A stretch of DNA of 38,411 nucleotides from positions 1 to 38,411 of the forward strand of contig DUCS01000012.1 of assembly GCA_012959695.1 (NCBI GenBank). The letters run 5' to 3'. A program made the translations under genes and the position numbers. The notes under the pieces were generated by a model. It made no database searches. It worked only from the letters and a program-made list of their open reading frames with translations, and was not told the origin of the DNA. Source of the DNA: Cycloclasticus sp. GTDB taxonomy: Bacteria; Pseudomonadota; Gammaproteobacteria; Methylococcales; Cycloclasticaceae. This document shows positions 3,993 to 24,680 of the stretch, piece by piece (the first letter of the stretch is position 1; the number at the start of each line of letters is the position of its first letter).

Positions 3993-4024
3993 GAACTAAT
4001 TTGTAAACGTCATTTGACGATTAG

Positions 4025-4052
4025 AAAAGGGTGCTTCGGCACCCTTTTTTTT
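4025..4052 (+). terminator. rho-independent terminator after pmoC
   Basis: A stem GGGTGC/GCACCC closes a TTCG tetraloop and is extended by AAAA pairing with the start of an eight-T run. It begins 32 bp after the pmoC stop codon and precedes a 185-bp gap to pmoA. It should end most pmoC transcripts, which would give higher pmoC than pmoAB mRNA unless a separate promoter drives pmoA. Confidence 0.88.
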
Positions 4053-4133
4053 GCGTAAGATAATGTTATTTAAAATAGAGAATAATTTAGGGATGAAACG
4101 TTAGGTAATACTTGGAATTTAGAGGCTTAGTAG

Positions 4134-4162
4134 TTGCTTTGGGTGTTGAATACGTATATTAT
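4134..4162 (+). promoter_or_regulatory. candidate sigma-70 promoter for pmoAB
   Basis: TTGCTT (4134-4139) and TATTAT (4157-4162) are separated by 17 bp, between the pmoC terminator and the pmoA start. A transcript would have about a 65-nt leader ending in the strong AGGAGG ribosome site at 4226-4231. The call rests on motif match and position only. Confidence 0.45.
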
Positions 4163-4236
4163 GACGCAAGCATTATGCTCAATGGCTTGGGTGTGGTACG
4201 AAAAAGAGATTTTTTTACAATAATTAGGAGGTCAAG

Positions 4237-4980
4237 ATGAGTGCAGTACAGTCGGCTATTACAACAGCTGAGCAACAGCATAGAATTTACAAAGCTTTCG
4301 ATTGGGTCGTTATTCCAATCGTTATTTTGGTTATTACGGGTGCATTCCATATTCACGCCATGTTAACAATGGGCGATTGGGATTTTTGGATTGATTGGAA
4401 AGATAGACGTTGGTGGGTAACAGTAACGCCAATTTCGTTAATTTTCTTCCCAGCAGCACTTCACTATTTACTATGGACTAACTTTAGGCTTCCATTTGGT
4501 GCAACACTAAGTTGTTCAGTATTGTTGATTGGTGAATGGGCTAATAGAACAGCAAACTTTGTTGGTTGGGCTTATTTCCCATTAAACATGGTTGTTCCTG
4601 CTGAAATTATTCCAATGGCACTGTGTTTGGATGCGATTCTGCTAATTAGTAGAAGTTTAACCATTACAGGTATTATTGGTTCAATGGTTTGGGGTGTTAT
4701 CTTTTACCCTTCAAACTGGGCGCTGATTGCTCCGTACCATGTGCCCATTGAATACAATGGCGTGATGATGTCAGTGGCTGATTTAATCGGTTACAACTAC
4801 GTTAGAACAGGCACACCAGAATACATTCGTATCATTGAAGAAGGCACCTTACGTACCTTTGGTGAGGACGTAACGCCGGTATCTGCATTCTTTGCAGGCT
4901 TTATATCAGTATTTATGTATTTTATCTGGTTAGGTATTGGCGCTTGGTTCGCTAAAACGACTTGGGCAAAACGAATTTAA
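4237..4980 (+). CDS. pmoA: particulate methane/hydrocarbon monooxygenase subunit A (PmoA/AmoA family)
   Basis: Integral membrane subunit packed against PmoB and PmoC. The 247-residue protein has the diagnostic block GDWDFWIDWKDRRWW (about residues 46-60), the classic pmoA/amoA primer region, followed by PISLIFFPAALHY and the NRTANFVGWAYFP segment. About seven hydrophobic helices are visible. The region normally reading GKDVAP in methanotrophs is GEDVTP here, fitting a divergent clade of the family such as the alkane-oxidising pHMO group (inference). The start is well supported by AGGAGG six bases upstream. The gap to pmoB is 79 bp with no terminator, so the two genes are probably co-transcribed. 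Confidence 0.93.
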   Translation: MSAVQSAITTAEQQHRIYKAFDWVVIPIVILVITGAFHIHAMLTMGDWDFWIDWKDRRWWVTVTPISLIFFPAALHYLLWTNFRLPFGATLSCSVLLIGEWANRTANFVGWAYFPLNMVVPAEIIPMALCLDAILLISRSLTITGIIGSMVWGVIFYPSNWALIAPYHVPIEYNGVMMSVADLIGYNYVRTGTPEYIRIIEEGTLRTFGEDVTPVSAFFAGFISVFMYFIWLGIGAWFAKTTWAKRI

Positions 4981-5059
4981 ATTAAATTATTGTTAATGGC
5001 GCCTATAAGCGCCGTTAACAACTTAATTTAATTACATTTAATAAAGATTGAGGAAGGAA

Positions 5060-6295
5060 ATGTTAAATATTAAAAAAACAATATTGATGCTTATTGCGTT
5101 TATGATTGCATGTATTACATTGTATGCAGCACCAGCAATAGCTCATGGTGAGAAATCACAAGCAGCTTACTTAAGAATGCGTACACTATTATGGTACGAC
5201 GTAGACGTATCGACGGTTAAGCTTAAAGTAAACGAAGAATTAACAATGACAGGTAAGTTTTACTGGTTTTACGACTGGCCAAACAACATTGCTAAACCTG
5301 AAGTTGCATTCTTAAACATCGGTATTCCAGGCCCCGTATTCGTACGTAAAGCTTCGTATATCAATGGAGTGTCTGGTACAAACTCAACACGTTTTGACAT
5401 TGGTGAAACGTATGAGTTTAAAGTGATACTTAAAGCACGTCGTCCAGCTCGCGTTCATATGCATGCATTAATGAACGTTAAAGAAGCGGGTCCATTAATT
5501 GGCCCTGGTCGTTGGGTTGAAGTAACAGGTAATCAAGCTGACTTCATAAATGAAGTGACAACATTAACCGGTGAAACGATTGATCTTGAAACGTACGGTT
5601 TGGCTAATGCAGTTAAATGGCACATCTTCTGGGGTGTTATTGCGGCGGCTTACCTTCTCTATTGGATATTCCAAGGCCCAATCTTAATTCCACGTTACAA
5701 GAAAGTGAAATTATTGGGTGACAATGCAGATGATATGATTAGTACAACAGATCGTATGGTTGGTTTAGTTATGCTAATTGGTACATTTGTAGTGGTTACG
5801 TGGAGTTACTTCAATGCATATAAAGAGTACCCAGTAACCATTCCGTTACAAAGTGGTCAAATCACAATCCCAGCGCTACCAGATGCTGCTCGTGGTGTGA
5901 ATGCTGAAGTAATAGACGCTAAGTACCGTGTTCCAGGTCGTGCGTTAGAATTTAGCTTAAAAGTAACCAACAACACGAATTCACCCATTAAATTAGGTGA
6001 GTACACAGCAGCTAATATTCGTTGGATGAATCCTGAAGTGTCTACAGCTGAGCCTGCAGATAGTCATGATCCTGTAGCGGTCGCTGGTCTCACTTATGAA
6101 GGTGGATCTGTTATGCCGGGCGAAACTAAACTTCTTAAAGTGACATGTACTGATGCTGCTTGGGAAACATACCGTTTAGCTAAATTGATCTATGATCCAG
6201 ATAGCCGTTTCGGTGGTTTAGTCTTCTTCTTCGACGAAGAAGGTAACCGCTCAGTAGTTGCTATTGGTGGTCCTTTAATTCCTGTGTTTATCTAA
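5060..6295 (+). CDS. pmoB: particulate methane/hydrocarbon monooxygenase subunit B (PmoB/AmoB family)
   Basis: Periplasmic copper-binding subunit with two cupredoxin-like domains joined by two membrane helices. I chose the ATG at 5060 (411 residues) because AGGAAGG lies three bases upstream; a TTG at 5048 is less likely. The signal peptide ends AIA and leaves His29 as the new N-terminus in HGEKSQ, equivalent to Methylococcus PmoB His33. His133 and His135 (RVHMHALMNV) correspond to His137/His139, so the CuB site is complete. The residue equivalent to His48 is Leu44 (TLLWYD), so the bis-His CuA site seen in Methylococcus is absent. Membrane helices lie near residues 190-208 and 234-256, and a second cupredoxin domain runs to the C-terminus. 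Confidence 0.93.
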   Translation: MLNIKKTILMLIAFMIACITLYAAPAIAHGEKSQAAYLRMRTLLWYDVDVSTVKLKVNEELTMTGKFYWFYDWPNNIAKPEVAFLNIGIPGPVFVRKASYINGVSGTNSTRFDIGETYEFKVILKARRPARVHMHALMNVKEAGPLIGPGRWVEVTGNQADFINEVTTLTGETIDLETYGLANAVKWHIFWGVIAAAYLLYWIFQGPILIPRYKKVKLLGDNADDMISTTDRMVGLVMLIGTFVVVTWSYFNAYKEYPVTIPLQSGQITIPALPDAARGVNAEVIDAKYRVPGRALEFSLKVTNNTNSPIKLGEYTAANIRWMNPEVSTAEPADSHDPVAVAGLTYEGGSVMPGETKLLKVTCTDAAWETYRLAKLIYDPDSRFGGLVFFFDEEGNRSVVAIGGPLIPVFI

Positions 6296-6314
6296 CAGGT
6301 AATTGATGTAAGTT

Positions 6315-6346
6315 AAAAAAGCCCCGCTTTGCGGGGCTTTTTTTTT
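6315..6346 (+). terminator. rho-independent terminator after pmoB
   Basis: A seven-bp GC stem GCCCCGC/GCGGGGC with a TTT loop is preceded by an A run and followed by nine T residues. It lies 20 bp after the pmoB stop and separates pmoAB from the downstream copper-protein genes. Confidence 0.93.
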
Positions 6347-6376
6347 AAATTGTGAATCTGACAGAACTAAATGAAT

Positions 6377-6416
6377 TATAATATGTCCTATTGTTTTAAC
6401 TTATTGGAGATGGTCA
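6377..6416 (+). promoter_or_regulatory. candidate -10 box and ribosome site for the downstream copper-protein operon
   Basis: A consensus TATAAT at 6377-6382 follows the pmoB terminator. No good -35 hexamer sits at 16-18 bp, so the promoter may need an activator. GGAG at 6406-6409 is a well-spaced ribosome site for the ATG at 6417. Confidence 0.4.
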
Positions 6417-7013
6417 ATGTATAAGATGGTATATGCAGTTGTATTAATGATGATTAGTACCGTGTCTTGGGGACACGGTGGTGTGATGAACGAAGGTAAT
6501 GAGTGTAAATTACGCGTGGGACCTTATGTGATGAACTTTTCTGGTTACCAATTACAGAAAAATGCGCCGATGCAGTTTTGTGATGATTTGCCGACAGTTG
6601 GTGAGTCATACATCGTATTAGATTTTGTCGATAATAAGCTTCGTGATATGACGGTGAATTTTCGAGTTATACAAGCCGATCAACCAGCGTTAGGTACCGC
6701 GGAAGATGGTATCGTCATTGACTCTGAATTAGCTCAAACGCCTTTTTTTGAAATACCAGCTAAACGTTATCCTCAAGGAACAATGAAGATTACACAAAAG
6801 TTTGAAAAAAAGGGTCATTTTGTCGGTTATGTGATTGTTGAAGGTGAGAATGAAAAGTACATTTCACGTTTTCCATTTTCTGTAGGCTATCCACAAGCGG
6901 GTATCCCAGAATCACTCAAAATTCCCATTGCAGTATTTTTAGTGGTTATTATCTTTATGATTTGGTTAGCGCGTAGAAAACCCGTTGAATTGAATGAAAA
7001 GAGAGACGATTAG
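6417..7013 (+). CDS. periplasmic membrane-anchored protein of unknown function, linked to pmoCAB
   Basis: I do not recognise this 198-residue protein. It starts with a signal peptide (hydrophobic stretch to about residue 19, TVSWGHGG), which leaves a His-Gly-Gly N-terminus. A periplasmic domain of about 145 residues follows with two Cys (NECKL near 29, QFCDD near 55) that could form a disulfide or bind metal. One C-terminal membrane helix (about 167-185) and a short charged cytoplasmic tail complete it. The same layout of periplasmic domain plus C-terminal anchor occurs in PmoD/AmoD proteins, but I see no CuA-like Cys-x3-Cys motif, so I do not call it PmoD. It is the first gene after the pmoB terminator and lies upstream of two copper proteins, which suggests a role in monooxygenase assembly, copper delivery or electron transfer. 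Confidence 0.75.
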   Translation: MYKMVYAVVLMMISTVSWGHGGVMNEGNECKLRVGPYVMNFSGYQLQKNAPMQFCDDLPTVGESYIVLDFVDNKLRDMTVNFRVIQADQPALGTAEDGIVIDSELAQTPFFEIPAKRYPQGTMKITQKFEKKGHFVGYVIVEGENEKYISRFPFSVGYPQAGIPESLKIPIAVFLVVIIFMIWLARRKPVELNEKRDD

Positions 7014-7084
7014 CATCGTAACGTTCTAATCAACAGACCTAAAATTTTACCCATTGGGTATAAGAGATATTGATAGACTTACAA

Positions 7085-8791
7085 ATGAAAAAATTCCCGG
7101 TTTTAGGATTAATTTTAAGCGCAGTAATACTCAGTATTATTGCGCTTTTTCTTTATAATCCTTATTTCATTTATTCTCAGTATTATGAATACACGGGCAT
7201 GCCAGCCTATGAAGCAGCCCCGCCACCAAAACCAAAAGCTGAATTAGCAAAGCCAGTTATGTGCGATGAGGATTATCCTGAATGGCGCAAGGCCTACACA
7301 ATAGGCGGTATGGATATTCAAGCTTCAGATGCTTGCAACCCTGACAATCCTTACGAAGTAGCAGCCTTTGTTAGGGGGACCAACAATATTATTATGCCGG
7401 TGTTGATGCGTACCCAGTTATCGGATGATGCAGTGGTTAAAACGGATGACCTTGATGGCGACGGTGATCCTGACAACATTACAATCAGAATTGAAGTGGC
7501 GGAGCTTAATGGCCGCTCACCCGATGAGCTAGGCTTTATTCCTGGCTTTGAAATAGCACCGGGTGTTAAGCCAGGAGCATGGGTGTTTGCGCCTAAAAGT
7601 CGCGGCATGTCGACTGTGAATCGTGAAAATTTAAATGCCAATCATTTATTAAGACTTCCATCCGCACCTATTCGTGTTGAAGCGGGTGATAACATCACGT
7701 TAATTTTAGAAAATACGCACTATTTCCCACATACAGTACATTTGCACGGTGTTGATCATGTGTTTTCGAACAATGATGGAGTGCCGCAAACCAGCGAGCA
7801 AATGACCATGCCGGGTGAGCAGCACCTGTATAAGATGAAGCCGCGTCACGCAGGCACTATGATGTACCACTGTCATGTACAGGTGCAAGTGCATATGATG
7901 ATGGGCTTACAGGGTTTGTTTATTGTAGAAGAAAATAAGCCGAATAATTGGGTGCAAACCTTTAATGTCGGTGCAGGTAAAGTAAGGCACCCATCGGTCG
8001 GCGTTCGCGAAGATTACGTGCAAGAATATGATTTGCACTATCAAGCGATTGATACATCGCTCAATAATTTAATCCAAACTACCAATGACCCACGTCAGTT
8101 GGCGAAAAAAATGAACCGCCTGTACGATATTACTGATGGGACCGATGATTACTTTATGCTGAATGGCCGCTCGTTTCCCTACACGTTACGAGAGTCATTA
8201 ATAACCGTAGAGCCTGATCAGCACGTTAAATTGCGGGTACTAAATGGTACGCCAGAAGTGATTGCGCTACACACGCATGGGCACAAAGCGACCATTACAG
8301 CCTATGATGGGGTAGACGTTAACCCTGCTGCGAAAATAACACGGGACGTTTATACTATTGCCTCCGCACAACGCATTGATTTGGACTTGTATACCAAAGA
8401 TGATGGATTGCATAGCTACGGTGAAGGTGCTTGGTTAATGCATGATCATGCGGAACGAGCCATCACCACTAATGGTATCAACCCCGGTGGCAATGTGTCG
8501 CAAATTGTTTATAGAAAGTACCTGAATAAAAATGCGATGCCGAATGTAGAAGGTGTGAGTATTATGCCGTACTTTAGCCCAGAATATTATAAAGGTGAGT
8601 TACCGACGTGGAGCGCCTCCGATGCGTTTGGTTGGTGGGATGATGTGGCGGGAAAAAGTGTTCAATCCTATAAAGATGTTATTTTATTGATTGTTCTCGG
8701 CATGTTGGCAGGCGTATTGTTTTTATTATTTAACGTGATGTACAGTTTTTTACATGACGTTGCTGTTAAATTAAAAGATAGAAGTCGATGA
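7085..8791 (+). CDS. membrane-anchored multicopper oxidase with type-1 copper motif in the first conserved cupredoxin domain
   Basis: A 568-residue multicopper oxidase anchored by an N-terminal helix (about 7-26) and a C-terminal helix (about 532-555), so the body faces the periplasm. Trinuclear-site motifs are HTVHLHG (H219, H221), HCH (H262, C263, H264), HTHGH (396-400) and MHDH (H453, H455). The only type-1 Cys motif is in the N-terminal part (YHCHVQVQVHMMMG); the C-terminal motif reads HDH with no Cys. Compared with the usual HCHxxxHxxxxM, the motif has two extra residues and Leu275 appears to replace the axial Met. The ATG at 7085 gives a classic MKK start; an in-frame TTG at 7070 is possible and neither has a strong ribosome site. 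The stop overlaps the next gene's start by 4 bp (translational coupling). Confidence 0.85.
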   Translation: MKKFPVLGLILSAVILSIIALFLYNPYFIYSQYYEYTGMPAYEAAPPPKPKAELAKPVMCDEDYPEWRKAYTIGGMDIQASDACNPDNPYEVAAFVRGTNNIIMPVLMRTQLSDDAVVKTDDLDGDGDPDNITIRIEVAELNGRSPDELGFIPGFEIAPGVKPGAWVFAPKSRGMSTVNRENLNANHLLRLPSAPIRVEAGDNITLILENTHYFPHTVHLHGVDHVFSNNDGVPQTSEQMTMPGEQHLYKMKPRHAGTMMYHCHVQVQVHMMMGLQGLFIVEENKPNNWVQTFNVGAGKVRHPSVGVREDYVQEYDLHYQAIDTSLNNLIQTTNDPRQLAKKMNRLYDITDGTDDYFMLNGRSFPYTLRESLITVEPDQHVKLRVLNGTPEVIALHTHGHKATITAYDGVDVNPAAKITRDVYTIASAQRIDLDLYTKDDGLHSYGEGAWLMHDHAERAITTNGINPGGNVSQIVYRKYLNKNAMPNVEGVSIMPYFSPEYYKGELPTWSASDAFGWWDDVAGKSVQSYKDVILLIVLGMLAGVLFLLFNVMYSFLHDVAVKLKDRSR

Positions 8792-9438
8792 TGAAAGCTC
8801 TTAACGTTGCAGTATTAGCCTTATTACTCGTTATAACTAGCATCGCTCAAGCAGAAATGAGCCATATGGGGATGCGGATGGGTGAGTGGGGCATGGTGAT
8901 GAATGAAAACTTACAAGACTTGCCGCAAGGATGTTTGAAAATAGCAGGGGTTCAAAAAATCACAATCAAAGCGGGTAGAGAGTACGCTAAACCCTTCCCG
9001 GGTACTATTTTTGGTTATAGTCAGCACGAATTTAATCTACCAAAGTGTACACAGATTAATGTTACGTTTATAAACGAAGATAATATCCGCCATCAATTTA
9101 TGATCCATGGTTTGCCAACGTATTTGCATCCTCAAGGGATGTTTCATATGGAGTTATATGCGAAGGGTGAAGTGAAAGGTACGTTTATAACGCCCAGTTC
9201 TGATAAAACATATTTAGCTCATTGTGATGTTGCACAGCATATGGAAAAAGGCATGAAAGCACAGGTTAAAGTGGGGGATGGTAGTGGTAATTTGCCGTCA
9301 ATCCCTGGGGTTTCTGGGCAGCTTAATAAAGATGTTTACGCGTTGGATTTAAGCGTTGCGAACATTATTCTCGTCATCTTATTATTTTTTCTTGGCTTAG
9401 CTAGCTGTTTATTTTTCTTTATTTGGCGCAAGCACTAA
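8788..9438 (+). CDS. Met-rich, membrane-tethered cupredoxin
   Basis: A 216-residue blue-copper-type protein. The signal peptide ends near residue 22 (IAQA) and is followed by a Met-rich segment MSHMGMRMGEWGMVM, a likely Cu(I)-binding string. The cupredoxin domain (about 55-163) supplies a plausible type-1 site: His102 (NIRHQF), Cys146, His151 and Met156 (HCDVAQHMEKGM). That is C-x4-H-x4-M, the spacing used in multicopper oxidases and nitrite reductases rather than C-x2-H-x4-M of plastocyanin. A C-terminal helix (about 190-212) ending in WRKH anchors it in the inner membrane. It is translationally coupled to the multicopper oxidase, which suggests that the two exchange electrons or copper. Nothing in the sequence shows the direction of electron flow. 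Confidence 0.85.
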   Translation: MMKALNVAVLALLLVITSIAQAEMSHMGMRMGEWGMVMNENLQDLPQGCLKIAGVQKITIKAGREYAKPFPGTIFGYSQHEFNLPKCTQINVTFINEDNIRHQFMIHGLPTYLHPQGMFHMELYAKGEVKGTFITPSSDKTYLAHCDVAQHMEKGMKAQVKVGDGSGNLPSIPGVSGQLNKDVYALDLSVANIILVILLFFLGLASCLFFFIWRKH

Positions 9439-10835: not shown

Positions 10836-11399
10836 TTAGAACCTAATCAGAGTTATTTCTTTTTGACGTTTTCGCCATTCCCTAAAGGCCAATAAACTTA
10901 GCGCCGTATCTTGGTAAGTCATAACCAGTTGCAGTTGCTCTGGTGAGGTTGACCTTTCACATTCGATGGTTATTTCACGTTGATTAGACTCGCGAATTTT
11001 CCATTTGTTATTTTCTTGAGTTATTCTGAATTCAGACGTATCGCCGAGTGCATTAAGCGTTTGTTTTATGAGCGCATCTTGTTGGGCTAGGCAGTCTTTT
11101 TTTGCCAGCTCTAAGGGACTTTTAGTCTTAATACCGTAAATGATGTGTGACTTAGGGGTTGTAGAGTATTCGTATTTAACAAATCGCTTATCGGTCTTAT
11201 TGGCAGTAAAAGTAATCTCCTTATTCTCTATGGCATACCCTGGTGGTAGGTCTTCGTCAACGGTACCAATCTTGATACCAAAAATTTCACTGATGGCAAA
11301 TTCTTCAGTTAAATCGATGTCATTGTCATCATTTGCTTCACTGCAGCCCAATAGCAGGGTTAGTAAAGCGAGGCCTAATAAAGTCTTGATAATATTCAT
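10836..11399 (-). CDS. putative lipoprotein, paralogue of the next gene
   Basis: An unrecognised 187-residue protein with a lipoprotein signal; the lipobox LLLGC places the lipidated Cys at residue 19, followed by an acidic linker. The mature domain shows FGIKIG, LPPGYAIENK, FTANKTDKRF and HIIYGIK blocks, all of which recur in the neighbouring lipoprotein, so the pair arose by tandem duplication. A conserved Cys pair further on (KKDCLAQQ and IECERS) also matches the paralogue and could form a disulfide. It lies convergent to the methyltransferase gene. No function can be assigned. Confidence 0.75.
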   Translation of the reverse strand: MNIIKTLLGLALLTLLLGCSEANDDNDIDLTEEFAISEIFGIKIGTVDEDLPPGYAIENKEITFTANKTDKRFVKYEYSTTPKSHIIYGIKTKSPLELAKKDCLAQQDALIKQTLNALGDTSEFRITQENNKWKIRESNQREITIECERSTSPEQLQLVMTYQDTALSLLAFREWRKRQKEITLIRF

Positions 11400-11457
11400 A
11401 AATAGTTAATTGTGTGTGTTTTAGGCTTAAGTTTAAATTAAGTGACGTTTGTGACAA

Positions 11458-12015
11458 TTATTGTGGTTTAGTTATGTCATCTTGATGCTTTGACCATTCG
11501 ACGTAACTTAACTTACTTAAAGAGGTATCGCTGACTATCATCACCAATTGACGGGTCTTTGGCGTTAAAGCAAGTTCACAATCTATGATAATGGAGCGCT
11601 GATTATCTTCACGAATTTTCCATTGATTACCATCTTCGGATACTTTAAGGGCGGATGTGTCGCCAAGTGTCGCTAGTGTTTCTTTCACTATTTCATCACG
11701 TTGTTCCTTACAGCTTGTTTTGCTAAGGTCTGACGAGCTTGTCATTTTAATGCCGTAAATCATGTGTGTGTTGGGTGTCACTGAAATCGTATACGAGTTA
11801 AAGTTTTTATGCGCAGTATTAGGGGTGAAGTCAAACGGCTTGTTGTCATTGATATAGCCACTGGGTAGGCCTTGGCCTTTGTCACCTAATTTAATGCCGA
11901 AGACGCCAGTGATTTTAAATACTTTGTCAGAGTTTGATGTGGCGTTGTCATCGCCGCATGCTGACAGTAATAATGCGATTGAAAAAATGGCGAGTATATT
12001 TTTAAGTGTATTCAT
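11458..12015 (-). CDS. putative lipoprotein, tandem paralogue of the downstream gene
   Basis: A 185-residue lipoprotein with lipobox LLSAC (Cys20). The mature part parallels the neighbour at 10836-11399: FGIKLGDKGQGLPSGY, FTPNTAHKNF, HMIYGIKMTSSSDL, TLGDTSALKVS, WKIREDNQRSIIIDCE and LVMIVSDTSLSKL all have counterparts there in the same order. The copies have diverged well beyond half of their residues, so the duplication is not recent. It starts 10 bp after the stop of the upstream sugar-dehydrogenase-like gene and is probably co-transcribed with it. The function is unknown; a small outer-membrane or periplasmic lipid-anchored domain is all that can be said. Confidence 0.75.
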   Translation of the reverse strand: MNTLKNILAIFSIALLLSACGDDNATSNSDKVFKITGVFGIKLGDKGQGLPSGYINDNKPFDFTPNTAHKNFNSYTISVTPNTHMIYGIKMTSSSDLSKTSCKEQRDEIVKETLATLGDTSALKVSEDGNQWKIREDNQRSIIIDCELALTPKTRQLVMIVSDTSLSKLSYVEWSKHQDDITKPQ

Positions 12016-15323: not shown

Positions 15324-15647
15324 TTAGCTTTTAGGTGTAAACGCTGTTGTGCTTTCTTTAACTAAGTTTAATACTTCTTCGTTGTAGGCTTTCGTGTCTT
15401 CGAATAAAGATTTGGCATCAGCAACAACTTTTTCAAGGCCTGTTTGCGCTAGTTCAACCTGCTCTTTAGCAAATGCGTTGAATGCTTCAGGGTCTTTAAT
15501 GCCTGACGCTGCTTTGATGCGAGCTTCTGTCAGCTCAACGTAGTTTTTAGCCGCTACTTGTTGTGCCGCAGCCATTTTTTCAAATTGCGCTTTGTTTAAT
15601 TCGATAAGCTTCGTGATTGGTCCTGCAAATGCGTCAAAGTTGTTCAT
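15324..15647 (-). CDS. phasin family protein
   Basis: Small amphipathic protein that coats polyhydroxyalkanoate granules. I chose the ATG at 15647 (107 residues, MNNFDAFAGP) because GGAG lies seven bases upstream; an ATG four codons earlier contains that ribosome site. The sequence follows the phasin_2 pattern: a segment with LIELNKAQFEKM, then AAAQQVAAKNYVELTEARI, a GIKDPEAFNAFAKEQ turn and a final helix with LFEDTKAYNEEV. It is all-helical, Ala/Glu/Lys-rich and lacks Cys. A strong promoter lies just upstream and a terminator just downstream, so it is expressed on its own as well as possibly by read-through from pyrF. No PHA synthase gene is in the window. Confidence 0.88.
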   Translation of the reverse strand: MNNFDAFAGPITKLIELNKAQFEKMAAAQQVAAKNYVELTEARIKAASGIKDPEAFNAFAKEQVELAQTGLEKVVADAKSLFEDTKAYNEEVLNLVKESTTAFTPKS

Positions 15648-15682
15648 GTTGTTCTCCATTAGGGTTTATTTAAGTTAGGTGT

Positions 15683-15713
15683 AGTATAGCAAACACTTTG
15701 TTGCCGTGCAACA
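15683..15713 (-). promoter_or_regulatory. phasin promoter with overlapping inverted-repeat operator
   Basis: On the minus strand TTGCAC (15711-15706) and TATACT (15688-15683) are spaced by 17 bp, a strong sigma-70 promoter. The -35 overlaps a TGTTGC-ACG-GCAACA inverted repeat (15699-15713). PHA regulators of the PhaR type are known to bind TGC/GCA-rich palindromes in phasin promoters, so this is a candidate repressor site; that identity is inferred. Confidence 0.6.
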
Positions 15714-15741
15714 TAAATAGTAACTAATTTAAATAAATCAG

Positions 15742-16086
15742 TTACTTGCCTGTTTCTTTTTTGATTTCTTCTTTTAATTGAACAGTGCTTTCTTGAAATA
15801 ACTGAATGACGTCGGCGTTATAGCCGGTCATCGATTCAAACATGACTCGGCTATTGCCAACCATTTTTTCATAACTGCTTTGCGCGAGAGCCATTTGGTC
15901 TGTCACAAAGCTTGCTAAAGCAACGGGATCTTTAATATCCGAAGCAGACTGCATGCGTGATTGTACGAGCGCGCGATAATCGTCAGCGGCTTTTTTTTGT
16001 GCAGCCATTAAGGTGTCAAAGTGCTGAGTGTTTAATTCAACCAGTTTTGATATAGGTTGGGTGAAACCTTTAACATTTTTTACCAT
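15742..16086 (-). CDS. second phasin family protein
   Basis: A 114-residue paralogue of the downstream phasin with the same layout: GFTQPISKLVELNTQHFDTL, AAQKKAADDYRALVQSRM, a SDIKDPVALASFVTDQM turn and MFESMTGYNADV. The last helix ends in Lys/Glu residues. AGGGGGT five bases before the ATG gives a strong ribosome site. It begins only 17 bp after the pyrF stop, so it must be co-transcribed with pyrF, unlike the first phasin, which has its own promoter. The two copies differ at most positions, so this is an old duplication or two separately acquired phasins, possibly with different granule or expression roles. Confidence 0.87.
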   Translation of the reverse strand: MVKNVKGFTQPISKLVELNTQHFDTLMAAQKKAADDYRALVQSRMQSASDIKDPVALASFVTDQMALAQSSYEKMVGNSRVMFESMTGYNADVIQLFQESTVQLKEEIKKETGK

Positions 16087-17410: not shown

Positions 17411-17989
17411 GTGCACGTTATTTATCTACACGGGTTTTGTAGTTCAGCCGCTTCGTTTAAAGCGCAACTGGTTAAACAGTATGTTCAGCGCGATGAAAAA
17501 CACAGCGTATTTTTAATTGATTTACCGTATTCACCTAACGAGGCAATGGCACGTGTTGAATCGCATATTGCTACATTAAAAGGTCAGCAATGGGGCTTGA
17601 TAGGCAGTTCGCTTGGCGGCTTCTACACAACTTACCTGAGTGAGAAATACGGCAAGAGAGGCGTGCTAATTAACCCCGCTGTTTACGCGCATCAATTATT
17701 ATCACGCTTATTAGGTGAGAATAAGAACTATCATAGCGGCCAGGTGTTTGAGTTTACTGAATCGCATTTGCAACAATTAGAGGCCATGTATCTTCCGCAA
17801 CTCAGTCATGCGAAGAACTTGTTGCTGTTGACCCAAACAGGTGATGAAGTGCTAGATTATAAACAAGGCGTTGAGTATTACCGTAACAGTCAACAAGTCA
17901 TCATTGACGGCGGCGACCATGGTTTTGCCGATTATGAAAACTATTTAGACAAAACATTCGAATTCTTAGAAGGACAGACAGATGATTGA
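17411..17989 (+). CDS. yqiA: YqiA-type esterase
   Basis: A 192-residue small alpha/beta hydrolase. The GTG start at 17411 fits the conserved N-terminus HVIYLHGFCSSAASFKA. IGSSLGGFYTTYLSEKYG holds the nucleophile Ser, VLINPAVYAHQLL follows, LLLLTQTGDEVLDY holds the acidic residue and GGDHGFADYENY the catalytic His. This matches E. coli YqiA, which has palmitoyl-CoA and ester hydrolase activity in vitro but no firm physiological role. Its 3' end overlaps the next gene by 8 bp, so the two are translationally coupled. Confidence 0.9.
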   Translation: MHVIYLHGFCSSAASFKAQLVKQYVQRDEKHSVFLIDLPYSPNEAMARVESHIATLKGQQWGLIGSSLGGFYTTYLSEKYGKRGVLINPAVYAHQLLSRLLGENKNYHSGQVFEFTESHLQQLEAMYLPQLSHAKNLLLLTQTGDEVLDYKQGVEYYRNSQQVIIDGGDHGFADYENYLDKTFEFLEGQTDD

Positions 17990-18800
17990 AGGCCACGTAA
18001 AAAAAATGCACGCAACGCTTGGTTCGCCAGTGGAATACTCGCTGCCTATTGATGAGGAACTAGTACCACTTAACCCGTATATAGGCAAAAAAATCAAGCT
18101 AACCCACCCTGGAGACATTCATTGTTCGAACTGCGGTAAACGAACAAAAAAGAGTTATAGCCAGGGTTTTTGTTACGTCTGCATGACCAAATTGGCACAA
18201 TGTGATTTGTGCATTATGAAACCGGAAACCTGTCATTACCATTTAGGAACGTGCCGTGAACCACAATGGGGCGAACAGTTTTGTTTTCAAGATCATTTTG
18301 TGTACTTGGCAAACTCGTCAGGCCTAAAGGTTGGGATTACTCGGCATACTCAAGTGCCAACGCGTTGGATTGATCAAGGCGCTATTCAAGCGCTGCCTAT
18401 TTTTAAAGTTAAAACGCGCCTACAGTCCGGTGAAGTAGAAATGGCATTAAAGCAATATGTATCCGATAAAACGGATTGGCGAAAAATGCTTAAGGGCTTG
18501 GCCGAACCTAAAGATATGTACGAAGAGCGAGATCTGTTATTAGCCACCGCGCAAGACGCGATAAGCGCCGTGCAAGCTGATAATAACGACGGCGATATTC
18601 AATTTTTAACAGACGCCAAACAAGTGGATATTGAGTACCCCGTGCTTGAATACCCTGATAAGGTCAAATCGTTTAACTTTGATAAAACACCGGTAATAGA
18701 AGGGGTGTTAAAGGGCATTAAAGGGCAATATTTAATTCTCGATAATGGCGTATTAAATATTCGCAAATTCACCAGCTACAACTTGCAGTTTGATGCCTGA
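17982..18800 (+). CDS. DUF2797 family protein with Cys-rich zinc-finger-like N-terminal part
   Basis: A 272-residue cytoplasmic protein of a conserved uncharacterised family. Residues about 48-95 carry many Cys: CSNCGKRTKKSYSQGFCYVC, then CDLC and further single Cys (ETCHYHLGTC), which suggest two zinc-binding knuckles. The middle holds VYLANSSGLKVGITRHTQVP and TRWIDQGA, which is reminiscent of the GIY-YIG-like nuclease fold reported for related proteins (from memory, not verified). It overlaps yqiA by 8 bp and cinA by 8 bp, so the three genes form one translationally coupled run. The biochemical function is unknown. Confidence 0.82.
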   Translation: MIEGHVKKMHATLGSPVEYSLPIDEELVPLNPYIGKKIKLTHPGDIHCSNCGKRTKKSYSQGFCYVCMTKLAQCDLCIMKPETCHYHLGTCREPQWGEQFCFQDHFVYLANSSGLKVGITRHTQVPTRWIDQGAIQALPIFKVKTRLQSGEVEMALKQYVSDKTDWRKMLKGLAEPKDMYEERDLLLATAQDAISAVQADNNDGDIQFLTDAKQVDIEYPVLEYPDKVKSFNFDKTPVIEGVLKGIKGQYLILDNGVLNIRKFTSYNLQFDA

Positions 18801-20013
18801 AAAAAACCGCCCTAAGGTGGTCATCTTTTCGCAAGGCGATGAAGTGATAACTGGCGCAACCATCGATACCAATGCGGCGTATTTAGCGGATCATTGTCGC
18901 ACGCTTGGCTTTGATATTATTCGCCATATCACCGTGGCAGATGAACTTGATGATTTGGTTCAAGTGCTTAAAGACATTGATGCGCTAGCGGACATTTGTT
19001 TATGTACCGGTGGTTTAGGGCCAACGCAGGACGATTTGACGACACAAGCGTATTCAAAAGCATTTAACACCCCGCTAGTATTTGACGATATCGCCATGAC
19101 GATGATGCGAGGCTTTTTCGATAAGCTCAATATTGATATGCCTGAGGTAAACCGCAAACAAGCCTTGTTACCTGAAAATTCAACGCGCATTGATAATCTC
19201 TGGGGCACAGCAGCAGGGTTTATTGGGGAAACGAACCGGTGTCGGTTTTATTGTATGCCCGGCGTTCCTTACGAAATGAAAAACATGATGCAGACCACCG
19301 TGTTAGATGATTTACGTGCCTGCTTTAAGGTTCAAAAACCGAGGCTTATTACCTTACGCACGATGGGAATGGGCGAGTCTGCTATTCAGCAGGAAGTAGA
19401 TAAGCTGTCGTTGAGCGATGATATTCGAGTGAGTTTTCGGGCGGGCCTACCAGAAAACGAACTAAAGCTGATTTTTCCTAGTCATTACGTCGATGATGCA
19501 GTCCAGCGTTGTATTAAAGAAGTACAGGGTGTTCTTGGCGGTAGTGTTTTCGCCATCGATGGATTTGGTAAAGCGGTCAAAAATTTACCTGATTGCGTGC
19601 ATCAATTAATGATTGAAAAACAACAGACATTGAGTGTGATTGAAACCATCTCGCAAGGCGGTATTGCGCGTCAATGTGATGTCGGTTGGTTGCAACAATC
19701 GATGGTATCGCCGCGCGTATCAGCTATACTCTCGCGCTTTGGAATTGATAACGCTGACATTACTGAGTCATTAGCCGTTGAAATAGCGACTAAAGAACAC
19801 GAGCAGAATGACTCAAATATCACGCTTGTGCAGTTACATCATAATGATGGAGATGACGTTATTGCAGTAGTCGCCGTTGTGAGTGATACGTCGCACACGT
19901 CAGCATCAAAAAAACTAACGGGGCGACTAGAGCGCAAACAAATTAACGCGTCTGCACAGGCGCTTAACTTACTTCGAAAACACTTAATAGAAAACGATTA
20001 TGCCACTCATTAA
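18793..20013 (+). CDS. cinA: CinA-like protein (MoCF domain plus degenerate C-terminal CinA domain)
   Basis: A 406-residue protein. The N-terminal molybdopterin-binding-fold domain (about 8-175) has FSQGDEVITGATIDTNAAYL, LCLCTGGLGPTQDDLT-like and YCMPGVPYEM motifs of CinA/COG1058. The C-terminal part (about 255-400) lines up with the PncC/CinA deamidase domain, which in active enzymes hydrolyses nicotinamide mononucleotide. Here the usual VAESCTGG signature is replaced by VIETISQGGIARQ, so the Ser/Cys-containing active-site loop is not recognisable and activity is doubtful. The ATG at 18793 overlaps the DUF2797 gene end by 8 bp, and the stop overlaps uup by 14 bp. Confidence 0.85.
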   Translation: MPEKNRPKVVIFSQGDEVITGATIDTNAAYLADHCRTLGFDIIRHITVADELDDLVQVLKDIDALADICLCTGGLGPTQDDLTTQAYSKAFNTPLVFDDIAMTMMRGFFDKLNIDMPEVNRKQALLPENSTRIDNLWGTAAGFIGETNRCRFYCMPGVPYEMKNMMQTTVLDDLRACFKVQKPRLITLRTMGMGESAIQQEVDKLSLSDDIRVSFRAGLPENELKLIFPSHYVDDAVQRCIKEVQGVLGGSVFAIDGFGKAVKNLPDCVHQLMIEKQQTLSVIETISQGGIARQCDVGWLQQSMVSPRVSAILSRFGIDNADITESLAVEIATKEHEQNDSNITLVQLHHNDGDDVIAVVAVVSDTSHTSASKKLTGRLERKQINASAQALNLLRKHLIENDYATH

Positions 20014-21951: not shown

Positions 21952-22039
21952 GGAGAGATGTCAGAGTGGCCGAATGAGCACGCTTGGAAAGTGTGTGTAC
22001 CTTACGGTACCGTGGGTTCGAATCCCACTCTCTCCGCCA
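21952..22039 (+). tRNA. tRNA-Ser (anticodon GGA)
   Basis: An 88-nt tRNA with CCA encoded. The acceptor stem GGAGAGA (21952-21958) pairs with TCTCTCC (22029-22035), followed by discriminator G and CCA. The anticodon loop reads CTTGGAAAG with anticodon GGA (codons UCC/UCU). The long variable arm GTACCTTACGGTAC is typical of class II tRNA-Ser, and the T arm GTGGGTTCGAATCCCAC is canonical. A TATAAT box at 21939-21944 lies eight bases upstream and is a likely promoter -10 element. The accessory cassette begins right after the CCA. Confidence 0.97.
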
Positions 22040-22050
22040 TTTACCTATAT

Positions 22051-22107
22051 AAACCAATAAGTTAGAGATGATTTATTGGTTTACCCCTCATACTGCCCCT
22101 CATTTTG
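22051..22107. repeat. inverted repeat and tandem 12-mers directly downstream of tRNA-Ser
   Basis: A perfect 10-bp inverted repeat AAACCAATAA/TTATTGGTTT (22051-22060, 22073-22082) has a 12-nt spacer. It is followed by two tandem 12-mers, CCCCTCATACTG (22084-22095) and CCCCTCATTTTG (22096-22107), identical at 10 of 12 positions. Short direct repeats next to a tRNA 3' end are commonly arm-type or excisionase binding sites of integrative elements. No integrase gene is present, so this would be a relic attachment region (inference). Confidence 0.5.
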
Positions 22108-22144
22108 GAAATGATTAAAATTTCCGTAAAAAACAACATAAATA

Positions 22145-22885
22145 TTAGTGAACCATGTCGTTTGATGCCGATAATAAACGATAAGCTAGCCATTTGTATA
22201 CTGCTTTTTTCGTGACACGTGGCGATGTGTAATAACGCTGAAGCCACTTCCAATCAGCGGCCTCTAACGTAGGCGTGTGTGCTGAATGGATGCCGTTCTC
22301 AGTAAAAAATGTAGTAATACTGCGCTGTACTATCGGAGGGTAATCATCAAATGCATGCTTATCGACTGTCACAACATCAAGACGGCTTAGGAGTGTAGTA
22401 GGGATTTGCTTTACTGAATTAGCCGTACAAATCCATGTTATTCGAGAGAAATCACAACTACCACTTAAATATTCGTCGAAAAAGTTCTTTGAGGATGTGG
22501 GCTCAAATAATGTAAGCAAAGTATCAAGTGCGCGACCATTGTGATCTGATCCGCCACACTTATCGACCTCGTCGACCAACACAATAGGGTTGCCTACCTT
22601 ATGTTCATTTATCAATTGAATCATCATGGAAGGGTGACCTGTACCCCAGCCTCGGGAAGTTCCAGCGAGATCGCGATTATCGTTCTTTCCTGCAAGTGAA
22701 ATGGCTCGAAAGGGTACTTGCATCAATGCACTGAATCGTAATGTATAAGTGGTCTTTCCAACCCCTAGATCACCTAAAACTAATAAAGGTGGAATGAAAA
22801 AGTCACCATTTCCAAGCAACCTAAGTTGCAATGAAGAAATTAGCTTTTGTGTTAATTTGTGAAACCAGGGGAATTCTTTATCCAA
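22145..22885 (-). CDS. Lon-like AAA+ ATPase, main (3') frame of a frameshift-split gene
   Basis: This frame encodes 246 residues starting LDKEFPWFHKLTQ. It has a full AAA+ core: Walker A GDLGVGKTT, Walker B IVLVDEVDKCG, sensor-1 region ITWICTANS and an arginine-finger-like LLSRLD. The layout resembles the ATPase part of Lon, but there is no Ser/Lys protease domain and only about 100 bp remain before the tRNA. The frame's first codon is TTG with no ribosome site; it is most likely expressed by fusion to the overlapping upstream frame (22852-23097) through a -1 shift on the A7 run at 22888-22894, giving about 317 residues. The sequence could equally be a disrupted gene or carry a homopolymer error. 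It lies in a cassette with a tiny Cys-motif protein and an XRE regulator. Confidence 0.8.
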   Translation of the reverse strand: MDKEFPWFHKLTQKLISSLQLRLLGNGDFFIPPLLVLGDLGVGKTTYTLRFSALMQVPFRAISLAGKNDNRDLAGTSRGWGTGHPSMMIQLINEHKVGNPIVLVDEVDKCGGSDHNGRALDTLLTLFEPTSSKNFFDEYLSGSCDFSRITWICTANSVKQIPTTLLSRLDVVTVDKHAFDDYPPIVQRSITTFFTENGIHSAHTPTLEAADWKWLQRYYTSPRVTKKAVYKWLAYRLLSASNDMVH

Positions 22886-23097
22886 GGTTTTTTTACAATA
22901 TTCAAATCACCAATTCGAACTAAGGTAACAGGAGTTGTTACCAATTCTTCATATTTTTCGCAAACCGTACGCACACTTCTATCTCCTGAAGGCTCAATAG
23001 ATTGTATGGCTCGTATCCCGCCAATTTGTTTAGTTAAATCGTCTGTTATTGAACTGAGTACATGCTTCAAATCAGAGCTATCGCTGTCAATGAGCAT
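22852..23097 (-). CDS. N-terminal (0-frame) part of the split AAA+ ATPase gene
   Basis: I start this frame at the ATG at 23097 (MLIDSDSSDLKHVL) because it overlaps the stop of the upstream small gene by 11 bp, a classical coupling arrangement; a GTG at 23178 would lie deep inside that gene. The frame reads 70 residues to the A7 run, with a helical, acidic start and a VTTPVTLVRIGDL strand region, then continues out of frame for about 11 codons to a stop at 22852. Shifting back one base at GTA-AAA-AAA joins it to the ATPase frame as VKK-TLDKEFPW. The N-terminal region has no recognised domain and could act as substrate or partner adaptor for the ATPase. Confidence 0.65.
   Translation of the reverse strand: MLIDSDSSDLKHVLSSITDDLTKQIGGIRAIQSIEPSGDRSVRTVCEKYEELVTTPVTLVRIGDLNIVKKPWIKNSPGFTN
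22888..22894 (-). other. A7 slippery run at the frame junction
   Basis: On the minus strand the two overlapping frames share GTA-AAA-AAA-CCT. The heptamer A-AAA-AAA fits the X-XXY-YYZ rule for -1 ribosomal frameshifting, and a -1 shift here gives exactly the downstream ATPase frame. I see no obvious strong pseudoknot downstream by eye. A homopolymer error in the assembly is the main alternative. Confidence 0.6.
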
Positions 23098-23305
23098 CCA
23101 AAATTGACCCACATAGGCATCGAATATTGACCCTCCTTCGGCCCTTACTTTTTTTAGTATAAGTATGAGTTTCTCCACAATTTTTGCATTTTATTGTGGT
23201 TGTCTTATCTGACGTAGGAGCAGGGAGTAGCAATAGTTGCTTTGTGCCAAGTTCAGTTGTTATTGCTCTTGATAGTGGGTTTTTAGTTATATTTAAAGTT
23301 GTCAT
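23087..23305 (-). CDS. 72-residue protein with zinc-ribbon-like Cys motifs
   Basis: An unrecognised small protein. The ATG at 23305 (MTTLNITKNP) is preceded by GGAG six bases upstream and is preferred over an in-frame start six codons earlier. Residues about 38-66 carry CKNC (C40, C43) and CLC (C63, C65) flanking a basic stretch KKSKGRRRVN, a pattern suited to one zinc ion and nucleic-acid or protein contact. The N-terminal 35 residues are low in charge and may be flexible. Its stop overlaps the proposed ATPase start by 11 bp, so the two are probably made in fixed ratio. A near-consensus promoter and two operator-like repeats lie just upstream. Confidence 0.65.
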   Translation of the reverse strand: MTTLNITKNPLSRAITTELGTKQLLLLPAPTSDKTTTIKCKNCGETHTYTKKSKGRRRVNIRCLCGSILDAH

Positions 23306-23318
23306 TGTAATCTCCATA

Positions 23319-23336
23319 AACACCTAGTGTGCATTG
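23319..23336. promoter_or_regulatory. operator-like site 1 of the cassette
   Basis: AACACCTAGTGTGCATTG matches the other two sites (shared pattern AACACnnAGTGTGyrTTr). It begins 14 bp upstream of the small Cys-motif gene and overlaps the region just before its ribosome site, in the early transcript from the promoter at 23373-23401. Confidence 0.6.
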
Positions 23337-23372
23337 ATAGTTAAATAAAAACTGGCTGATCCAGTGAGAACA

Positions 23373-23401
23373 ATTAAAGAACACTAAGTGTGCATTGTCA
23401 A
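23373..23401 (-). promoter_or_regulatory. near-consensus sigma-70 promoter with operator-like site 2 in its spacer
   Basis: On the minus strand TTGACA (23401-23396) and TTTAAT (23378-23373) are spaced by exactly 17 bp. The spacer is occupied by operator-like site 2, AACACTAAGTGTGCATTG (23380-23397, plus-strand sense), whose core ACACTAAGTGT is a perfect palindrome. A protein bound here would block RNA polymerase. The promoter drives the Cys-motif protein and ATPase genes; the likely repressor is the adjacent XRE protein. Confidence 0.75.
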
Positions 23402-23408
23402 GTCTTGA

Positions 23409-23615
23409 TTAAAACTTTGGTGGGAAGGGGATGTTGCATTTAATGCAAAAAAGCTCAATGAGCCCTATAGTAACCTTGCGATGGTTAGGTTGATCAATAG
23501 GCGTTTCCCATGATTGCCAAGTACGCCTCGATACATAGACTACCTTCCCAGCTTCTTCTTGGGTTAGGTTAGCTTTCAACCTAAGTTTATTGATCTGCTG
23601 TGGAGTAATTTGCAT
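23409..23615 (-). CDS. XRE-family HTH transcriptional regulator (small)
   Basis: A 68-residue protein that is almost entirely one helix-turn-helix domain: INKLRLKANLTQEEAGKVVY, then VSRRTWQSWETPIDQPNHRK, where the recognition helix lies around SRRTWQSWE. The C-terminal IELFCIKCNIPFPP adds a Cys pair of unknown use. It lacks a ligand domain, as in phage Cro or C-protein-like regulators. An operator-like repeat lies 36-53 bp upstream, and two more control the downstream genes, so autoregulation plus control of the cassette is likely. An upstream ribosome site is not obvious. Confidence 0.85.
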   Translation of the reverse strand: MQITPQQINKLRLKANLTQEEAGKVVYVSRRTWQSWETPIDQPNHRKVTIGLIELFCIKCNIPFPPKF

Positions 23616-23650
23616 CTGTTTTATTTTGAATAATGGTCAAAAATAACGAT

Positions 23651-23675
23651 AACACATAGTGTGTGTTAAATTATA
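23651..23675 (-). promoter_or_regulatory. operator-like site 3 and -10 box of the XRE gene
   Basis: AACACATAGTGTGTGTTA (23651-23668) is the third copy of the cassette repeat. A TATAAT box (minus strand, 23675-23670) lies immediately upstream, so the repeat covers the expected transcription start of the XRE gene. The -35 is weak (CTTAAT). The arrangement fits negative autoregulation. Confidence 0.55.
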
Positions 23676-23711
23676 AAGCAAAATGACACACCATTAAGTT
23701 CGTATTGTTTT

Positions 23712-23930
23712 TTACTTTGGCAATATTGAAGATAGAGTTATTGGCTCTTCTGTAGTGTTAACATTACATTTAGTAATGATGCGTGAAATTTCTGTTTCGG
23801 CAGGTGTTTTGCCAATATCTATTCCTGCTTTGTCACAGAGCTCGCCCCATGTTTTAAGTTTTTCTTTCATACTATGTTTGACTTCGATAATTTGGTCGTT
23901 GGTTTTACAGTGGTAATCGTAAGTAGGCAT
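23712..23930 (-). CDS. FmdB-like putative regulatory protein, last gene of the hydrogenase run
   Basis: A 72-residue protein starting MPTYDYHCKTNDQIIEVKHS, the N-terminal pattern of FmdB-type zinc-ribbon proteins, followed by KLKTWGELCDKAGIDIG and a TPAETEISRIIT stretch. Only single Cys residues (C8, C32, C54) are present, so the usual CxxC knuckles are missing and the ribbon may be vestigial. It is 36 bp downstream of the nickel transporter on the same strand, which makes it the final gene of the hydrogenase maturation operon. Related proteins occur beside hyp genes in other bacteria (from memory). No activity is established. Confidence 0.7.
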   Translation of the reverse strand: MPTYDYHCKTNDQIIEVKHSMKEKLKTWGELCDKAGIDIGKTPAETEISRIITKCNVNTTEEPITLSSILPK

Positions 23931-23966
23931 TAGTGATTTTATCCGGTCGGTTTTTTAAATTTATCG

Positions 23967-24680
23967 TTAATGGAATACATTAAATTGCAAATAGTCATTA
24001 ACCATCATACTGCCAATGGTGACGGTGCATAAGGATATGGCTATATGTAAGGTGTTATATACATGCGTTAGTTTATGTGAAGAATAACGTAAGGGGATGG
24101 CAATAATACAAGACAAGATTGCCATACCTAAGATTGAGCCAATGCCAAATAATGAGATATAAATTAATGCGGTAGCAGGTGTTTGTACGGTTTTGACTGT
24201 TAGGATAATTAATGCCGCTGAGCCTGCCATGCCGTGCATAAGGCCAATGAGTAGTGCGCGTTTTGGAAAGGCTTGTGTGTGTTCGTGCTGATGTGCGTTG
24301 GTGTTATGGGTTTCGTCTTTATTATGTGCGTGAGCATGAAAATGTTTGATGTCTTTGCCGTGTTTATGAGCATGAAAGTGAATGCGTTTTTTGTATAAGC
24401 GATAGAGAACATCTAAACCAAGAAGCACGAGCATGATGCCAACTGCAAATTCTAAGGCTGCAGAAATGTTATTAGGGACAATGCCGTCAATTAGTAAAGC
24501 AATAGAACCGAATAAGAAGAGTGTTAGCGTATGGCCAAGGCCCCAAACAGCACCTTGCATGACCGTTCCTCTTAAGCTGTTATTCCCGGTAGCTAAACTG
24601 GCGACTGCTGCGACATGATCCGCTTCAAGCGCGTGCCGCATGCCGATTAGAAAGCCTAAAAATAGTAAGTTAAGGTCCAT
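23967..24680 (-). CDS. nickel/cobalt transporter-like membrane protein (UreH/HupE-type)
   Basis: A 237-residue integral membrane protein with about six helices. The first helix carries MRHALEADHVAAVAS, close to the HX4DH signature of NiCoT permeases. A second conserved segment reads LIGLMHGMAGSAALIILT. Between helices 3 and 4 is a very His-rich loop (FHAHKHGKD, HFHAHAHNKDETHN, HQHEHTQ) suited to bind Ni2+. It overlaps hypE by one base (stop/start), so it is the nickel supply gene of the hydrogenase operon. The direction of transport (uptake) is inferred from this context; some relatives are exporters. Confidence 0.85.
   Translation of the reverse strand: MDLNLLFLGFLIGMRHALEADHVAAVASLATGNNSLRGTVMQGAVWGLGHTLTLFLFGSIALLIDGIVPNNISAALEFAVGIMLVLLGLDVLYRLYKKRIHFHAHKHGKDIKHFHAHAHNKDETHNTNAHQHEHTQAFPKRALLIGLMHGMAGSAALIILTVKTVQTPATALIYISLFGIGSILGMAILSCIIAIPLRYSSHKLTHVYNTLHIAISLCTVTIGSMMVNDYLQFNVFH

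Follow-up and report, generated by a model that had tools for sequence, protein, structure and literature searches.

What lies between the tRNA-Ser gene and the hydrogenase-side gene block of this Cycloclasticus genome, a small working cassette or the remains of a larger one? The question was addressed in the 38,411-nucleotide stretch of contig DUCS01000012.1 as a whole (hereafter the window) and in related genomes and loci, numbered G and L, respectively. The first-pass annotation had described a compact, self-contained and repressed unit with a tiny adaptor-like protein, a description that fails because the nuclease is truncated and the ATPase broken. What the window contains is the remnant of a nuclease-ATPase operon that is rare and apparently uncharacterised. 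It very probably represents the decayed tRNA-proximal end of a tyrosine-integrase island that had integrated at the 3' end of tRNA-Ser, with a deletion and a frameshift having broken its nuclease-ATPase cargo. This reading is drawn from comparison: from homologous genes, from the breaks, from the att end and, in an island of genome G001, from an integrase and a far att repeat. The main features are as follows.

21952..22039, plus strand: tRNA-Ser(GGA), the putative integration target (ARAGORN)
22025..22144, no strand assigned: putative island attachment end, with the tRNA 3' end (att core), a hairpin-like repeat and two arm-type sites (CCCCTCA, 22084 and 22096)
22145..22885, minus strand: only the C-terminal half, with the AAA+ module, of a Lon-type ATPase without a protease domain (83% identity over 246 codons to the 500-aa ATPase of G001)
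22852..23097, minus strand: what is left of the ATPase N-domain, from its end, in a different frame from the AAA+ module (shift at the A7 run, 22886-22892)
23087..23305, minus strand: truncated N-terminus (zinc ribbon) of an HNH/endonuclease VII-type nuclease (full-length relatives match the phrog_3322 endonuclease)
23409..23615, minus strand: XRE/Cro-type repressor of 68 aa in an open frame (49% and 52% identity to the XRE proteins of G010 and G023)

A broken nuclease-ATPase locus beside tRNA-Ser

On the minus strand, an XRE-like ORF, a Cys-motif ORF, an ORF ending at 22852 and an AAA+ ORF follow one another between tRNA-Ser(GGA) and the hydrogenase-side gene block. The adjoining tRNA-Ser and the XRE regulator were both correctly recognised in the first-pass annotation, the latter as an open frame with weak HTH matches. 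The supposed 72-residue Cys-motif protein exists as an ORF (72 aa, or 78 aa from a GTG, ending at 23087) and is the N-terminus of a nuclease of about 215 aa rather than a protein of its own. It aligns with the first ~50 residues of the 211-218 aa zinc-ribbon nuclease of relatives, and its last ~15-20 residues are out-of-frame ATPase sequence past a deletion of about 1 kb. In the comparison with L021, a contig of G001, the interval from 23145 to 23074 of the window measures 71 bp and its counterpart (17584 to 18674) 1090 bp, and the alignments place the window already in the ATPase N-domain by ATPase residue ~189 at the latest. Judged from these alignments, the loss of ~1 kb joined the start of the nuclease directly to the N-domain of the ATPase, and the catalytic C-terminal part of the nuclease is absent from the window copy, having been deleted. 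The ORF with the internal ATG at 23097, which stops at 22852, 81 aa past that ATG, overlaps the Cys-motif ORF by 11 bp. This overlap had been taken as a sign of gene coupling; it arises because the deletion junction runs into out-of-frame ATPase sequence.

The AAA+ region (22145-22885, minus strand) matches PF00004 (E 4.8e-13) and the TIGR00763 lon profile (E 1.8e-27), with no protease family among its Pfam matches. A Lon-type AAA+ module with Walker A/B is thus present by profiles and, for the Walker motifs, by eye, and residues that we take to be the Walker A/B and sensor-type motifs are retained in the window by eye. The C-terminal Ser-Lys protease domain of Lon is absent by Pfam: the Lon-profile matches stop inside the AAA+ module and the ORFs end soon after. 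The earlier description as a Lon-like ATPase lacking a protease therefore stands for the module and not for the gene, which is truncated, frameshifted and spread over more than one ORF. The AAA+ module lies in a different frame from the upstream ORF after the A7 run, and the N-terminal helical domain is missing, the relatives being ~500 aa in a single frame. The sole other ATPase match in the same genome (~80% complete) is a full-length Lon. Against G001, the AAA+ part has a low dN/dS of 0.08 with dS (1.3) near saturation: the ATPase family was under purifying selection, and the value gives no date for the breaks. The low value was counted against the relic reading, as it would mean that decay was recent or not total.

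Two other explanations of the breaks were weighed. The first is a unit that is reduced and yet works, made up of XRE, a microprotein with a zinc ribbon and an AAA+ motor acting alone, in which a programmed -1 frameshift at A AAA AAA C bridges the change of frame. By eye this heptamer occurs in the correct register, and Lon-like AAA+ ORFs as short as 250-379 aa are common among the fetched loci (64 ORFs). However, the full-length ATPases of G001, G010 and G023 keep a single frame across this position, the upstream ORF is a truncated N-domain fragment and the Cys-motif ORF ends out of frame, leaving such a unit very improbable. Programmed frameshifting was rejected as the cause of the split ATPase because the full-length relatives do not need it. 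The second explanation holds that the breaks are assembly or sequencing errors and that the living cell has an intact operon. The genome is a draft of 44 contigs and ~80% complete, and the frame change falls in a homopolymer, where a sequencing error is possible; this, the open XRE frame and the retained motif residues of the AAA+ module count against a relic. Yet a deletion of ~1 kb is atypical for a base-calling error and degraded copies are common at similar sites in G015, G016 and G017, so that errors of this kind are very improbable as the explanation. The window copy is, as a decayed remnant, probably dead.

The evidence for an island lies at the tRNA side. From the tRNA 3' end to the ATPase stop (22025-22144), the window is identical to the tRNA end of the L021 island in 115 of 123 alignment columns, and degenerate repeats resembling this end were also seen by eye at the tRNA-Ser loci L024, L027 and L028. 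No second copy of the att core with up to 2 mismatches was found from 22040 to 24000, so the island origin of the window copy depends on a single end. Inspection by eye of ORFs of at least 110 aa gave no integrase in the window copy; of an integrase and two att copies, as expected of a tRNA-integrated island, it has the tRNA-side att end only.

Other genes in the window were noted in passing. An FmdB-like 72-aa ORF (23712-23930) was rejected as a fourth cassette gene because it and the adjoining transporter-like gene (together 23712-24680) have a paralogous pair elsewhere in the same genome (G000:C9:146717-147682; 75% and 81% identity). In the other 17 genomes of the genus the FmdB-like ORF has 0 matches and the transporter-like gene 2. 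Positions 3201-9438 carry pmoC/pmoA/pmoB-type membrane monooxygenase-like subunits followed by a multicopper oxidase, and a tandem pair of small genes that resemble each other lies at each of 10836-12015 and 15324-16086, the genes being lipoprotein-like and phasin-like (all named by eye).

Intact operons and the island of G001

The same genes are linked in the same order elsewhere, as the first-pass annotation had proposed to check. The ATPase is encoded in one frame in G001 (500 aa), G010 (497 aa) and G023 (511 aa), in each case directly downstream (gap 13-15 bp) of a nuclease gene of 211-218 aa. The operon reads XRE-HNH-ATPase in G010 and G023, where an XRE of the window's kind (49-52% identity) precedes the nuclease, and HNH-ATPase in G001, which has no match to the XRE profile and, by eye, another small, divergent HTH-like ORF.

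All three intact nucleases match phrog_3322 (E 1.4e-27 to 1.8e-31) and endonuclease VII phrog_1035 (E 1.3e-13 to 1.4e-15), as well as HNH families and, more weakly, anti-sigma families; Pfam lists no HNH family for them at E 0.5. They also resemble phage proteins such as the PaMx28 gp09 endonuclease, whose gene adjoins the portal gene. They differ from these phage endonucleases in that their gene lies directly upstream of an AAA+ ATPase gene, and the window keeps the first ~50 residues only. AF2 modelled the nuclease poorly (mean pLDDT 43.2). For the ATPase, modelled with a mean pLDDT of 81.8, it predicts an all-helical N-domain. The AAA+ module of the LonA protease (endopeptidase La) is the best match of the ATPase in both sequence and fold (TIGR00763, PDB profile search and Foldseek, in which the best hits are Lon structures). 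Unlike LonA, this ATPase has no protease domain, appears to have a shorter, all-helical N-domain and is encoded beside a nuclease gene.

In G001 the pair lies on L021 (L038 in the collection scan), a 19,761-bp contig that is apparently a complete 19.7-kb island. A 17-bp direct repeat (att) occurs at 67-83 and 19707-19723, the latter in the 3' end of a tRNA-Ser; no tRNA gene was called on L021 because the contig ends inside the tRNA, which was recognised by its 3' sequence. The integrase gene (251-1543) encodes Arm-DNA-bind_3 and Phage_integrase domains, and a second Phage_integrase-like ORF falls below the Pfam cut-off. Integrase, att direct repeats and a tRNA target, cut by the contig end, are therefore all present. 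The cargo includes HsdR and an Xre/RES pair, together with HsdM-like, HsdS-like and NTPase-like ORFs named by eye, and the nuclease-ATPase pair is the tRNA-proximal cargo at the att end. The suspected mobile accessory at a tRNA is thus supported: the intact pair belongs to an integrative island, in the company of type I restriction genes and the Xre/RES pair. On L136 and L140 (Acidiphilium plasmids), as on L021, a Lon-like ATPase has an Xre/RES toxin-antitoxin pair no more than a few kb away.

L021 shares with known tRNA-integrating tyrosine-integrase islands an arm-binding integrase, att direct repeats at a tRNA 3' end and restriction-type cargo. It differs from typical ones in that the ATPase-nuclease pair, not the integrase, adjoins the tRNA, and the window copy has neither the integrase nor the far att site. 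The history of the window is then most probably as follows. An island with a tyrosine integrase would have inserted at the 3' end of tRNA-Ser, carrying at its tRNA-proximal end an intact cargo of an XRE repressor, a zinc-ribbon HNH/EndoVII-type nuclease and a ~500-aa protease-less Lon-type AAA+ ATPase. In the window, a frameshift would have separated the AAA+ module from the rest of the ATPase, and neither an integrase nor a far att site is left.

Distribution of the nuclease-ATPase pair and of Lon-like ATPases

ATPase-family sequences other than Lon are present in 6 of the 18 Cycloclasticus genomes (G000, G001, G010, G015, G016 with two loci, and G017). All 7 loci lie ~105-220 bp from a tRNA 3' end, 5 at tRNA-Ser and 2 at tRNA-Glu; in G010 it is the XRE end of the operon that faces the tRNA. 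Two of the loci are intact (G001, G010) and five are degraded, with stops or fragments in the ATPase loci of G015, G016 (both) and G017. At L028 (9211-10712, G016) two degraded ATPase copies follow each other next to tRNA-Ser(TGA), giving the appearance of two hits on one site. Beyond Cycloclasticus, the operon is intact in G023, where the 20 kb that were read contain no called tRNA. Downstream of tRNA-Ser(GGA), the 14 other readable genomes show 13 different neighbours by eye, one being shared by G005 and G013. This survey leaves out G002 and G003, whose sequence stops too close to the tRNA, and G006, which gave no match. An ATPase remnant follows the tRNA in G015 and restriction-like genes follow it in G004 (both by eye). 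This variety fits an integration hotspot, and general rearrangement would look the same.

To gauge the wider spread, 84,980 species genomes were scanned with two peptide patterns, which gave 264 ATPase relatives, Lon-like proteins included. Among the best 80 of these, a nuclease stands beside the ATPase in at least 4 (L035-L038), a lower bound since several contigs are short. Co-occurrence in unrelated hosts is thin: besides two Cycloclasticus genomes, the HNH-ATPase pair was found in a single Methylococcaceae MAG and on a single contig of 4 kb with the label Opitutaceae (L037), on which the ATPase is split into two ORFs of one frame and an integrase lies downstream. Matches of the profiles to their own source loci occur by construction, the one for the nuclease deriving from the proteins of G001, G010 and G023 and the one for XRE from those of the window, G010 and G023; L037 gave the only independent strong nuclease match, and the XRE profile found no independent XRE. 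A nuclease search in the class matched 2 of 369 genomes at E 1e-8, with no Lon-like ATPase seen by eye among the ORFs of their 1.5-kb flanks. Viral contigs contained no relatives of nuclease or ATPase (tblastn, E 1e-3). Matches to the ATPase occur in 9 phage records and 132 plasmid records, and no match spans more than 80% of the protein.

A different partner recurs among the wider ATPases. A same-strand metallophosphoesterase-like ORF lies within 1.5 kb of 9 of the 45 protease-less Lon-type ATPase ORFs of 380-700 aa, compared with 1 of the 64 ORFs of 250-379 aa and 0 of the 14 ORFs of more than 700 aa. This count is descriptive: the 1.5-kb limit was chosen after inspection, the profile was seeded from ORFs of the same set, ORFs rather than independent lineages were counted, and 40 locus ids had been removed beforehand as duplicates or tRNA-site loci. 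The loci concerned are L023 (1409-2008), L050 (6514-7347), L138 (5898-7401), L146 (587-1402), L147, L148 (2382-3419), L157 (656-1399), L158 (2439-3188) and L066. The neighbour is downstream in 8 cases and upstream only in L147, and the two ORFs overlap or abut in L050, L148, L157 and L158. Pfam supports the identity in both loci tested (L023, L050), and L138 is annotated so.

Control region and possible role of the intact module

The following elements flank the XRE gene of the window.

23320..23331, no strand assigned: operator-like palindrome ACACCTAGTGTG, before the nuclease start
23351..23365, minus strand: terminator-like hairpin between the promoter-like site and the nuclease start (equivalents at L022 11885-11900 and L023 4808-4823)
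23373..23401, minus strand: promoter-like site TTGACA-17-TTTAAT with an operator in its spacer (by eye)
23381..23392, no strand assigned: operator-like palindrome ACACTAAGTGTG
23652..23663, no strand assigned: operator-like palindrome ACACATAGTGTG, upstream of XRE

The repeated operator sites of the first-pass annotation are real repeats: the palindrome ACACNNAGTGTG has three exact copies, all flanking XRE, and no other exact copy anywhere in the window. Once one mismatch is tolerated, the count is 6 against 1.93 expected, a number reached in 4 of 100 shuffles. Among 140 loci the exact palindrome occurs in 2, both from G000, the window's own genome, and different palindromes stand at equivalent places in L022 and L023 (by eye). 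The claim that the genes have their own promoters fared worse, as 3 promoter-like sites on both strands, against 1.5 +/- 1.3 in shuffles, are indistinguishable from chance, and the scans were not above shuffles in the other scanned loci either. The scan omits the site at 23373..23401, its rule requiring an A at position 2 of the second hexamer. By eye, the layout of the XRE-nuclease gap is common to all three XRE-bearing loci (window, L022, L023): a -35 of TTGAC type comes with a palindrome inside or adjoining the spacer, a terminator-like hairpin follows, and another palindrome precedes the start of the nuclease. The scan found the leader hairpin in these three loci and did not list it in L021; it found a leader promoter in L023 (11/12) and in L021, which lacks XRE (10/12), and none in the window or L022.

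In the intact module, XRE may repress its own gene and the nuclease-ATPase operon via the paired operators, and the leader hairpin could insulate the operon from XRE transcription or shape the mRNA 5' end. The ATPase ring might unfold or remodel a partner to license the nuclease. In the window only XRE and the operators look intact, and no activity is expected beyond possible DNA binding by XRE.

Because of the nuclease, the motor and the restriction neighbours in G001, defence-type cargo is tentatively considered the most likely role of the intact module. PADLOC gave weak matches only (best E 0.0018, a value obtained both for the window XRE and for the G001 ATPase, the latter against PDC-M37B), none amounting to a catalogued anti-phage system. 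In having an ATPase gene beside an HNH nuclease gene, the pair resembles defence systems such as Septu, whose ATPase is not known to be Lon-like. Instead of defence, the pair could be a selfish homing or integration accessory that aids the spread or persistence of the island, in keeping with the kinship of the nuclease to phage endonucleases, such as the one beside the PaMx28 portal gene, and with the position of the pair at the att end in G001. The restriction and Xre/RES neighbours in G001, as expected of defence cargo, and the G023 operon, for which no tRNA was called in 20 kb of sequence, speak against this, and such a homing or maintenance role, the main rival to defence, is unlikely.

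The combination of XRE, EndoVII-like HNH and protease-less Lon AAA+ did not appear in the titles and abstract openings covered by a literature search, and to that extent the intact module is apparently uncharacterised. As a more speculative and rather doubtful proposal, the intact operon may be a module for immunity or island maintenance, so far undescribed, whose Lon-type ring has shed its protease and controls a phage-derived nuclease, with the wider Lon-like ATPase family coupled in other lineages to a calcineurin-like metallophosphoesterase.

In summary, recognising the relic in the window prevents a shortened nuclease and an ATPase broken by a frameshift from being annotated as a new system of three genes, one of them encoding a microprotein adaptor. 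The intact operons of the relatives are defined, testable constructs for a nuclease-AAA+ pair beside Cycloclasticus tRNA genes, and the metallophosphoesterases that recur next to Lon ATPases lacking the protease point to a family of ATPases not yet characterised.
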